From Planctomycetota bacterium (GTDB lineage: Bacteria; Planctomycetota; UBA8742; UBA2392), in assembly GCA_020845475.1 (NCBI GenBank), contig JADLFN010000018.1:1-64000 (forward strand): DNA of 64,000 bases, read 5' to 3'. A program made the translations under genes and the position numbers. Below the pieces are notes generated by a model. The model searched no databases. It worked only from the letters and a program-made list of their open reading frames with translations, and was not told the DNA's origin. Below, one piece after another: positions 42,822 to 46,600 of the stretch. The first letter of the stretch is position 1, and the number at the start of each line of letters is the position of its first letter.

Positions 42822-43637
42822 TCAGCCGGCCAGCCTGGCCATGGCTTCCTTCAAGCGATTGCGCCGCGCCTGTGCGGCACCGGGTACGGGCTTGACCGGC
42901 AGGCGCTTCTCGATCAGCTCCAGCTTGCGGCGCTCGCTGTCCTGCATGCGGCGCACGATGGGCTCATTGATAATCGCGCGCACGCGCTTTTCCATTTCAT
43001 CCTGCCACTGCTTCTCGTGCATCTCCGGCGGCTTGTCCGCCATGTATTGCTCGTAGGTCAGAGGCTTGTGCACGACAATTTCCTGGCGGCGAAAGAAGCG
43101 CGGCCGCCACGCATGGCGCGGCCAGAACTCGCCGGTGGTCACCATCGTCACCGGCAGAATCGTGGACTTGGTGGCAAAGGCGGCGCGCAGTGCGCCGGGT
43201 TTCCACTCGCCCATGAGCTGGCCGTGGGTGCGGCTGCCCTCCGGAAATATGCCCGCCGCGCCGCCCTGCTGCAGGATGCGCAGCAGCGTTTGATAGGGCC
43301 CGCGGCCGGGGTTGGCGCGATCGACGGGAAAGGCCTTGTAGGCCTTGACCCAGAAACTGACCAGCGGCACGCGAAAGAGCTTGTCCCAGGCCATGATCGA
43401 AAGATCGCGCTGCGCGAAGTAGATCATCATGCCCACGAGAGTCGGCGGGTCGAGGTAACTGGGATGGTTTGAAATCACGATCAGCGGGCCCTGGCGCGGG
43501 ATGTTCTCCACGCCCGTCAGCTTCCAGAAAAACAGCACGCGCCACAGCCCCGCCGCGATGTGCACCGCCGCGTGATAAAGGAAGCCGCGCCAGCCTTTCA
43601 GCGGTGTGAGATCCACAAGCATGCGCTCGTCGCTCAT
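42822..43637 (-). CDS. 1-acyl-glycerol-phosphate acyltransferase (PlsC-like)
   Basis: PLIVISNHPSYLDPPTL (NHxxxxD-like), GIFPEGSRTHGQL; overlaps the upstream ORF stop (ATGA). Confidence 0.88.
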   Translation of the reverse strand: MSDERMLVDLTPLKGWRGFLYHAAVHIAAGLWRVLFFWKLTGVENIPRQGPLIVISNHPSYLDPPTLVGMMIYFAQRDLSIMAWDKLFRVPLVSFWVKAYKAFPVDRANPGRGPYQTLLRILQQGGAAGIFPEGSRTHGQLMGEWKPGALRAAFATKSTILPVTMVTTGEFWPRHAWRPRFFRRQEIVVHKPLTYEQYMADKPPEMHEKQWQDEMEKRVRAIINEPIVRRMQDSERRKLELIEKRLPVKPVPGAAQARRNRLKEAMARLAG

Positions 43638-46600
43638 CCCATCCTCCGGCGCGGCTTGGCGGCGAGATATTGGTTGGGCCAGGGCACGTCCACGTCGTAG
43701 TGCTCGGCCGCGTGCAGCGTGAGGAAGGGATTCGCCAGGTGCGCGCGCGCCAGCATGCACAGATCGGCGCGGCCGGCGGCCAGAATGGTGTTGCACTGGT
43801 CGGCGTTCTGGATGTTGCCCACGGCCATGGTGGGCACGCCGGCTTCGTTGCGGATCTGGTCGGAGAACGGCACCTGGAACATGCGGCCGTACACGGGTTT
43901 TTGCTGCGGCACCACGCCGCCGGCCGAGCAATCAATGATATCTGCGCCGTTCTCGATCAGTGCTTGCGCGATGTAAACGCGATCGGCGTCGCTCAAGCCG
44001 CCCTCGGCCCACTCGGTGGTGGAAAGCCGCACGGAGATGGGTTTTTCCTCGGGCCACACGCTGCGCACGTCGCGCAGGATTTCGAGCGGCAGGCGCATGC
44101 GCTTTTCGAGCGAGCCGCCGTATTCGTCGCTGCGTTGGTTGGACAGCGCGCTGATGAATGAGTTGAGGAGATAGCCGTGGGCGTAATGCAACTCGAGCCA
44201 GTCAAAGCCCGCGGAATGCGCGCGCGAGGCCGCGGCCACGAAATCGGCGCGCAGCTTCTTGATGTCATCGTGAGTCATTTCGCGCGGCACGGGATAGCCG
44301 GAATCATAGGCAATGGCGGAAGCGGCCACGGTTGGCCACGCGCCTTCCTTCAGTGGCTTGCCGCCTTTCCAGGGTAGGTCGCATGAGGCTTTGCGGCCAG
44401 CGTGGCCGATTTGCAGGCCGATCCTGCCGGTGCTGTGGGCGTGGACGAAATCGACGACGCGTTTCCAGGCGGGCACGTGCTCATCGCGATAAATGCCCGC
44501 GCAGCCGGGAGTGATGCGACCCTCGGGCGCAACGGCCGTCGCTTCCGCAATGATCAGGCCCGCGCCGCCAATTGCCCGCGATCCCAGGTGAACAAGCGTC
44601 CAGTCGCCGGGCATGCCATCGTTGTAGGAATACATGCACATGGGCGAAACGACGACGCGGTTGGGCAAAGTGCAGCCGCGCAGGGTGAAGGGCGTAAACA
44701 CCGGTGGCGGAACATCAGCGCCCGTATTGCTGACTTTCTTGAGGCGATCCGAGACAGGCTTGACGTCAGGCGGCGCATCGGTCGTTGGTGGCGCAGGCAT
44801 CTTGCCTGCGGGCGTCCGGGCATCTTGCCCGGACGAATCGCCTACCCAAGGCCATTCTTTGAGTCCAGCCTTCACCGGATTGGATAGCACGTAAGCAATG
44901 CCGCGTGCAAACTCTCCCTCATCGCGCACGATGTGATCGTACGCTTCACTCTGCCAGAATGTGCCGCTACGTCCCAACACGCGATTGCACTCCTTGGCTG
45001 AAAACGATTTCCAGGAGTGGATTATCTCGCTCAACTCGTGACCGGTCATGGGTGTCAGGACAACGTGCACATGGTTGGGCATGACGCACCACGCGTGAAG
45101 GGAGTACCGCGCGCCATCAAAGTGCTTGATAGCGTTGGCAACAATCTCCGCGCATCGCCTATCTTTGAGCAAGCACTGACCATGGCCATTGTCGAGCAAC
45201 TGTTCGATGCGTTCTGCTTTGGCAGATGCGATTTGCCGGGCGAGATCCTGCGTGTTCTTTGGATTGCCGATCGCCTTCAGTTGTTTCTCCAGCTTACGCA
45301 ATTCAGCTTCAAGCGCGCTCAGCTCACCGCTTGATAGCGCATCGGCCAGCCGGAACGTCACGAAGTAGGTCGCTCCGTCCTTCTTCCAGTGTGGCAGGTA
45401 GCCTCGATTGTGCTTACCGATTTCTTGCGGGCGAGACGCCCGCAAGCCCGCAGGCGAGACGCCTGCGCCACTTGTCCACTCTTCGGTCACGCGGCGCACC
45501 AACTCGGGGTCGCGCAGCCTCAGGTTGTCGTAGGTGATGCTTTTGCTGCGCGTCATCAGCGAAAACGTGAGCTGCAATGGCGTCATGCCCATGTAGCGCT
45601 GCGTGTTCTCGAACCACTCCAGGCTGGTTTGCGCGGTCTTTTGCAGCCGCTCAACTTCGGGCCGGCGGCGCTTTTCGTACTCGGCCAGAATTTCGGGTAC
45701 TGGCTTGCCCTTCAATTCGCCCAGGCACTTCGCCAGTTCAATCGCGTCTTCCATGGCGAGCTTGGTGCCGCTGCCGATGCTGAAATGCGCGGTGTGCACC
45801 GCGTCGCCCACGAGCACGACGTTCTCGTGGTGCCAGCGCTCGTTGCGAATCGTCGGGAACGTGCGCCACAGCGAGCGATTCGTGAGCAGCCTTGCGCCCT
45901 GCATGTCCTCGGCGAACAACTTCTCCATGTACGCGACCGTCGCCGCTTCGTCGGCCTTGTCGAGGCCGGCTTTCTTCCAAACCTCTTCGCGGCATTCCAC
46001 GATGAATGTGCTGGTCTTGTCGTCAAAGGGGTAAGCGTGCACCTGGAACAAGCCGTGCTCGTTCTCCTTAAAGATGAACGTGAACGCCGGCAGCTTGCGC
46101 GAGAGACCCAGCCAGCAGAATTTGCATTTGCGCCAGTCAAGCGAGGGCTTGAACGTTTGCGCGTACATGTCGCGCACGCGGCTGTTCACGCCGTCGCAGG
46201 CCACGATCAAGTCGGCGTCCTTGAAGCGCGCGAGATCGGTGACTTCAACGAGGTGCTCAACTTTCGTGCCCAGCTTTACGGCGCGGGCTTCCAGGATTTG
46301 CAGCAGCTTCACGCGCGCCAGGCCGCAGAAACCATGGCCCGTGCTGCGGATTTTCTCGCCCTTGAAGAAAACGTCGATGTCGCTCCAGTAGGCGAAGTTG
46401 CGCCGTACTTCAGCCATGCTCTCGGCGTCGGCGGCTTCAAAACCGCCCAGCGTTTCGTCGGAGAAAACCACGCCCCAGCCAAAGGTGTCATCGAGCCGGT
46501 TGCGCTCGTAGACCGTGATCTGGTGAGAAGGGTCCGCCTTCTTCATCAGGATGCTGACGTAAAGCCCAAAGGGCCCGCCGCCGATGCACACGATTTTCAT
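43634..46600 (-). CDS. Anthraniloyl-CoA monooxygenase / salicylyl-CoA 5-hydroxylase-type FAD monooxygenase-OYE fusion, interrupted in frame by a RAYT
   Basis: N-terminus MKIVCIGGGPFGLYVSILMKKADP...GFGWGVVFSDET-like FAD domain; C-terminus FTPFTLRGCTLPNRVVVSPMCMYSYNDGMPGDWTLVHLGSRAIGGAGL OYE domain; continuous frame through the transposase. Confidence 0.85.
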   Translation of the reverse strand: MKIVCIGGGPFGLYVSILMKKADPSHQITVYERNRLDDTFGWGVVFSDETLGGFEAADAESMAEVRRNFAYWSDIDVFFKGEKIRSTGHGFCGLARVKLLQILEARAVKLGTKVEHLVEVTDLARFKDADLIVACDGVNSRVRDMYAQTFKPSLDWRKCKFCWLGLSRKLPAFTFIFKENEHGLFQVHAYPFDDKTSTFIVECREEVWKKAGLDKADEAATVAYMEKLFAEDMQGARLLTNRSLWRTFPTIRNERWHHENVVLVGDAVHTAHFSIGSGTKLAMEDAIELAKCLGELKGKPVPEILAEYEKRRRPEVERLQKTAQTSLEWFENTQRYMGMTPLQLTFSLMTRSKSITYDNLRLRDPELVRRVTEEWTSGAGVSPAGLRASRPQEIGKHNRGYLPHWKKDGATYFVTFRLADALSSGELSALEAELRKLEKQLKAIGNPKNTQDLARQIASAKAERIEQLLDNGHGQCLLKDRRCAEIVANAIKHFDGARYSLHAWCVMPNHVHVVLTPMTGHELSEIIHSWKSFSAKECNRVLGRSGTFWQSEAYDHIVRDEGEFARGIAYVLSNPVKAGLKEWPWVGDSSGQDARTPAGKMPAPPTTDAPPDVKPVSDRLKKVSNTGADVPPPVFTPFTLRGCTLPNRVVVSPMCMYSYNDGMPGDWTLVHLGSRAIGGAGLIIAEATAVAPEGRITPGCAGIYRDEHVPAWKRVVDFVHAHSTGRIGLQIGHAGRKASCDLPWKGGKPLKEGAWPTVAASAIAYDSGYPVPREMTHDDIKKLRADFVAAASRAHSAGFDWLELHYAHGYLLNSFISALSNQRSDEYGGSLEKRMRLPLEILRDVRSVWPEEKPISVRLSTTEWAEGGLSDADRVYIAQALIENGADIIDCSAGGVVPQQKPVYGRMFQVPFSDQIRNEAGVPTMAVGNIQNADQCNTILAAGRADLCMLARAHLANPFLTLHAAEHYDVDVPWPNQYLAAKPRRRMG
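44788..44836. repeat. REP pair, 3' side of the RAYT
   Basis: GCAGGCATCTTGCCTGC and GTCCGGGCATCTTGCCCGGAC. Confidence 0.9.
45424..45471. repeat. REP pair, 5' side of the RAYT
   Basis: CTTGCGGGCGAGACGCCCGCAAG and GCAGGCGAGACGCCTGC. Confidence 0.9.

Follow-up and report, generated by a model that had tools for sequence, protein, structure and literature searches.

A RAYT transposase with its REPs read in frame inside a bifunctional monooxygenase gene, and comparable insertions in other bacterial genes

Inteins with homing endonucleases are in-frame guests of conserved genes, where they recur at the same sites and are patchily distributed between sister species. Palindromic DNA can also lie within genes. 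In the portions of Di Nocera 2013 used here (PMC3733652), coding REPs of the GTAG/GTGG type are described inside ORFs, for example in Opitutus terrae, whose GTAG-20 elements have a GTGG-type foot; the hosts include tRNA synthetases and repair enzymes, and the inserts are about 20-80 aa long. The Rickettsia palindromic elements (RPEs), as cited in the same portions (PMC3733652), are short and non-autonomous, without a transposase of their own. REPtrons, or RAYTs, are described as separate, extragenic, single-copy genes (Nunvar 2010, PMC2817692; Bertels and Rainey 2011, PMC3116915; PMC8266576), and are apparently unable to self-mobilise (Bertels and Rainey 2011, PMC3116915).

Here we describe a RAYT that lies inside another gene. 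In the window, by which we mean the whole stretch of 64,000 nucleotides that was analysed, a single ORF of 988 aa (43634-46600, minus strand) encodes an FAD monooxygenase, a REP-flanked RAYT and an Old Yellow Enzyme (OYE) domain, in this order and without any stop or frameshift (Table 1). This is what a first-pass annotation had claimed, and the ORF check, Pfam and NCBIfam all agree with it. Despite the insert, NCBIfam assigns the fusion ORF to PRK08255, bifunctional salicylyl-CoA 5-hydroxylase, with 1084.3 bits (cut-off 1078). Both domains are present and the family score is reached, while the enzyme activity is predicted. The fusion of FAD monooxygenase and OYE is typical of this family (salicylyl-CoA 5-hydroxylase / anthraniloyl-CoA monooxygenase-reductase); what sets the window enzyme apart is a 228-codon insert between the domains. 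Directly downstream is a PF01553 acyltransferase gene (42822-43640, minus strand), which overlaps the stop of the enzyme and is probably part of the same operon.

Table 1. Positions of the host and insert features in the window.
Feature	Position	Strand	Evidence
Host N-terminal part, FAD monooxygenase domain of salicylyl-CoA 5-hydroxylase/oxidoreductase-type enzyme	45473..46600	-	FAD_binding_3 (PF01494), aa 3-320; NF006101, 1084 bits
5' terminal REP pair, in-frame translation SGAGVSPAGLRASRPQE	45422..45471	-	inverted repeat I1; DNA folding z -6.4
RAYT core, Y1 HUH transposase	44849..45421	-	Y1_Tnp (PF01797), aa 482-551; NF047646; start/stop table
3' terminal REP pair, inverted copy of the 5' pair, translation SSGQDARTPAGKMPAPP	44788..44837	-	inverted repeat I1; folding z -8.3
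Host C-terminal part, Old Yellow Enzyme (Oxidored_FMN) domain	43634..44787	-	PF00724, aa 634-967

The insert is recognised by NCBIfam as REP_Tyr_transpos (NF047646; 82.2 bits, cut-off 80), and its core matches the structure of TnpA-REP (PDB 4er8, E 6e-7). Both catalytic motifs are intact, as first reported: HVH is encoded at 45065-45073 and the catalytic-type Tyr at 44891-44893. The terminal inverted repeats of 50 nt are 84% complementary and span 684 bp. Each arm contains two hairpins behind a GTGG foot (folding z -6.4 to -8.3), with stems of 8 bp and 10 bp in the 5' pair. The first-pass annotation had described a REP-bounded element of 684 bp at 44788-45471; the inverted arms agree with this span, but the insert is in codon phase at 44789-45472 and out of phase at 44788-45471.

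Further, the start/stop table confirms that this RAYT has neither an ATG or GTG start nor a stop of its own. Inside the element, a TTG 8 codons before the core is the sole in-frame start ahead of it; past the core, no in-frame stop is reached until that of the enzyme, 404 codons on. RAYTs have been described as immobile, domesticated genes that stand alone in extragenic space; the window RAYT does not stand alone, as it reads into the host on both sides. However, its Y1 HUH domain with the HuH and Tyr motifs, and its inverted REPs with hairpins and a tetranucleotide foot, still place it in the RAYT family despite the genic position. In-frame palindromes like those of coding REPs and RPEs are also present, both as terminal REPs and as solo REPs, with dN/dS pointing to a functional host. 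An IS200/IS605 insertion sequence, which would occur in near-identical multiple copies, was considered and rejected, as identity to the nearest genomic copy is 49%. REP copies without a RAYT are present elsewhere in the window genome. Two of them lie in long frames (L297, G000:C46:176808-176857, and L299, G000:C49:100916-100973) and share the reading frame of the window 5' REP, with the peptides AGAPPAGLQASRLQE and AGVPPADIRASRPDE.

RAYT-free orthologues of the monooxygenase-OYE enzyme were found across the Planctomycetota family and phylum, and the orthologue in the congener G002 (L047, JABARW010000019.1) is 84% identical. Compared with G002 and the second congener, G001 (L048, QEVF01000036.1), both host domains have dN of 0.10-0.13 and dS of 0.9-1.0, giving a dN/dS of about 0.1 (about 0.14 for the Oxidored_FMN part). 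Among 171 columns that are invariant in 13 outside orthologues, five are altered in the window host, and three of these five are common to both congeners. The window host enzyme is shown by this to be intact and under purifying selection, with no excess loss of conserved residues.

The AlphaFold model of the window fusion, a check suggested in the first-pass annotation, has mostly high confidence in both host domains, and the insert starts right behind the final FAD-domain helix. The RAYT part is poorly modelled because no RAYT rows could be aligned. Together with the uninterrupted orthologues, the confident host domains and the position behind the FAD helix support the earlier proposal of a coding insertion tolerated at an interdomain linker.

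A search for the empty site gave a mixed answer. An ordinary linker is seen in the monooxygenase-OYE enzyme of G004, the next relative, but a clean empty linker at the window site was found in neither congener. Both hold in-frame REP remnants there, GQDAKAPAGKMPAPP in G002 and RAPAGKMPATP in G001, against which the window sequence aligns as GQDARTPAGKMPAPP. These remnants prevent a base-exact placement of the insertion point. They also imply that a REP-bearing element already occupied the site in the ancestor of the genus, or came in repeatedly.

The remnants bear on two other explanations. The source (G000) is a Planctomycetota MAG with a completeness of 77% and 4.27 Mb of sequence in 94 contigs, and an assembly or binning artefact could have joined a transposase contig into the gene. 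This is strongly disfavoured, to the point of being barely credible, as the REP remnants occur at the same site independently in the congeners, and equivalent insertions are found in many independent assemblies, including that of an isolate, Lamprocystis purpurea DSM 4197. Alternatively, the RAYT might be a recent chance insertion, in frame by luck (about 1 in 18, considering orientation, frame and length), in a dispensable gene heading for decay. The enzyme is not essential, the RAYT core is found in it in one MAG only, the window genome, and the two congeners have REP remnants only, which would fit. On the other hand, the small number of altered conserved residues does not suggest decay, and the same pattern is seen again in alanyl-tRNA synthetase (AlaRS), in FabZ and in many other genes. 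We therefore consider chance insertion unlikely.

In the 16 genomes of the Planctomycetota family, a RAYT search combined with ORF context identified 31 RAYTs of the subfamily, 15 inside host genes and 16 intergenic. The hosts are the monooxygenase-OYE enzyme (one), AlaRS (four genomes) and a FabZ-like dehydratase (ten genomes). Every one of the 15 genic RAYTs is open from the core into the downstream host, with at least 50 codons to a stop, while all 16 intergenic ones have their own stop 3-16 codons past the core (Fisher p 3e-9, relatedness ignored). Other stop-free in-frame RAYTs, which the first-pass annotation had proposed to look for, thus exist both in this family and, as described below, in other phyla. 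Judging from these frames, frame retention is a repeated property of the RAYT subfamily and not a single accident.

AlaRS, an enzyme of the essential type, is encoded at a single locus in all 16 family genomes and is uninterrupted in most of those that lack the RAYT. The AlaRS RAYT of G004, G007, G009 and G014 immediately precedes the CGGTHV motif; the sole AlaRS of G004 (1170 aa) and that of G007 (1209 aa) hold it in an open frame. A solo in-frame REP (SSGAGVPPTQQ) occupies the same site in G011. The AlaRS of G009 is frameshifted upstream of its RAYT, and the only AlaRS of G014 (L283, G014:C1) is broken at several places, the RAYT included; these breaks may be sequencing errors or real decay. 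For L283, this would mean either long-read error or an enzyme that is genuinely split. Several family members also have a variable AlaRS insert of up to about 90 aa near residue 290 (L215-L220). It was considered as a REP insertion and dropped, as it contains no REP peptide.

All ten RAYTs in the FabZ-like gene (10/16 genomes) are in one loop, and G010 has a solo in-frame REP at this site. An AlphaFold model of FabZ-RAYT, built with 9 sequences, has a mean pLDDT of 55, with 75-92 in the RAYT part and a poor FabZ part, and was set aside. In two genomes, G007 (L176) and G006 (L180), the linkers of the FabZ-RAYT contain in-frame tandem REP-like peptides, with units DAGQRPALP and RDVGVPPAA.

Such recurrence at one site of a conserved gene resembles inteins and group I introns, and strong REP hairpins are present on both sides of the insert. 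The insert could then be removed before the mature enzyme is formed, by protein splicing, by RNA splicing as in IStrons, or by translational bypassing. We found no Hint, splicing or other intein domain in the insert with Pfam up to E 10, and no group I, group II or IStron RNA family with Rfam up to E 1 in 44300-46000. Further, RNA removal or bypassing would put no pressure on the frame to stay free of stops, so the restriction of read-through to genic copies argues against both, and the solo in-frame REPs show that translated residues are tolerated. Removal in any of these forms is accordingly quite improbable. The earlier description of the insert as intein-like holds for its lifestyle (conserved genes, recurrent sites, turnover of occupants) but not for an intein or intron signature, of which none was found.

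Among the RAYTs themselves, all 28 complete sequences have the catalytic H, H and Tyr without exception. The closest pairs of FabZ RAYTs have dN of 0.19-0.30, with dS above 1 or saturated. In a phylogenetic tree the RAYTs of AlaRS and FabZ group in one clade (support 96/96), which includes one intergenic copy (L267), and a second clade (97/96) is intergenic throughout. The window RAYT is outside the AlaRS/FabZ clade, close to a RAYT that lies in a methylase.

Occupants of the FabZ site are out of step with their hosts. The sister species G009 and G014 have diverged by 4% in the monooxygenase-OYE enzyme, while their FabZ RAYTs are 31% apart. For these two RAYTs a common origin is rejected (p-AU 3.8e-5), as it is for the FabZ RAYTs of G005, G013 and G015 (p-AU 2.7e-6). 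The site has therefore been re-occupied, or its occupant replaced. A Mantel test of RAYT against species marker gives r 0.41 (p 0.008), indicating that a partial vertical signal is left at this site. Part of the RAYT divergence could also result from fast evolution or recombination.

To cover other phyla, one genome per species was scanned with conserved peptides, which brought in 39 RAYT loci, about 17 of them in long frames flanked by host sequence. As these examples were spotted by their long frames, they show breadth, and the in-frame rate among them is biased. The hosts, by profile search, are AlaRS, FabZ, PurH, a DinG-type helicase, LeuRS, ValRS, CarB and isochorismate synthase, and further an FAD oxidoreductase, DUF1156 and Eco57I-type methylases, HsdR and GH38. 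Carriers belong to Verrucomicrobiota, Lentisphaerota, Armatimonadota, Myxococcota, Hydrogenedentota, Entotheonella and the gammaproteobacteria; in L. purpurea DSM 4197 the host is an Eco57I-type methylase. Insertion at the same site recurs across phyla in the DUF1156 methylase (L183 and L107) and in the Eco57I-type methylase (L099, L103 and L110); LeuRS has insertions at three separate positions. No RAYT is present in the longer-than-usual homologues L059, L064 and L067. In the DUF1156 methylase ORF L183 (G381), extra in-frame REP-derived peptides (AQASSL...RQDACAT) are found beside the RAYT, and this one gene has therefore taken several insertions.

The diversity of hosts also bears on whether the RAYT has been domesticated, so that it aids the host function, for example by binding nucleic acid and thereby regulating the enzyme. 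Its conserved catalytic residues and low dN/dS, and the long occupation of the FabZ site, could be read in this way. However, the hosts are unrelated (a tRNA synthetase, a dehydratase, a purine enzyme, a methylase, a helicase, a mannosidase), members of one genus differ in whether they have the RAYT, and one occupant can replace another. The functional fusion first suggested for the window, if taken to mean that RAYT and host share a biochemical role, is for this reason unsupported, and we regard domestication as very improbable.

We instead favour, at roughly 80%, that the REP-RAYT mobile unit is translated and left unspliced, as a guest domain of host ORFs whose loops and linkers permit the insertion. 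Both the translation and the activity of the RAYT fusions are here presumed from sequence. Weighing against this reading are the disrupted AlaRS frames of G009 and G014 and the single MAG in which the window insertion occurs. By analogy with the biochemistry of other RAYTs (PMC8266576), the HUH nuclease would cleave at the terminal REP hairpins, and the unit would insert as single-stranded DNA. Insertions out of frame or in a folded core would be purged, while those in frame in a loop or linker would persist. The ribosome would then read through to give one polypeptide, with the RAYT as an independently folded domain between flexible linkers encoded by the REPs. Because its expression would depend on the host gene, the element would need neither a start nor a stop codon, and since any frameshift in it would also destroy the host protein, it would be protected from inactivation. 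Were the RAYT lost, an in-frame REP would stay behind.

A broader proposal is that genic RAYTs have given up their own start and stop and persist, translated and unspliced, inside conserved and often essential host proteins, with homing-like re-targeting of a few loop or linker sites and with REPs as both landing pads and scars. We put this forward tentatively, at a little under even odds. There is a real chance that genic RAYTs merit a class of their own. In the open-access literature we found no report of whole in-frame RAYTs in host genes, and priority is therefore not claimed. Occupied, REP-only and apparently empty alleles of one site exist in close relatives, which makes the mobility of the RAYT testable. 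If the proposal is true, the hosts are a natural catalogue of sites that tolerate insertion, in AlaRS, LeuRS, ValRS, FabZ, CarB and PurH. Fusion proteins of this type may also be misnamed by annotation pipelines.

In relation to known systems, the window element shares with stand-alone REPtrons and RAYTs the core between inverted REPs and the HUH and Tyr motifs, but genic RAYTs lack their own start and stop and have repeatedly inserted into host ORFs. With coding REPs, as these are presented in the portions of PMC3733652 used here, the window REPs have in common that they are palindromic and translated in frame in diverse proteins; a whole RAYT in frame and turnover at its site are not described for coding REPs in those portions. 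RPEs are likewise mobile palindromic DNA in frame within functional genes, going by the same portions (PMC3733652), but unlike them the genic RAYT element has its own HUH enzyme on board. It would thus be a self-carrying counterpart to coding REPs and Rickettsia RPEs. The resemblance to inteins is in the conserved hosts, the recurrent sites and the patchy presence among sister species. The difference is that we find no splicing domain, and that the guest is a Y1 transposase which most likely stays in the protein; if so, genic RAYTs are a splicing-free analogue of the intein lifestyle.
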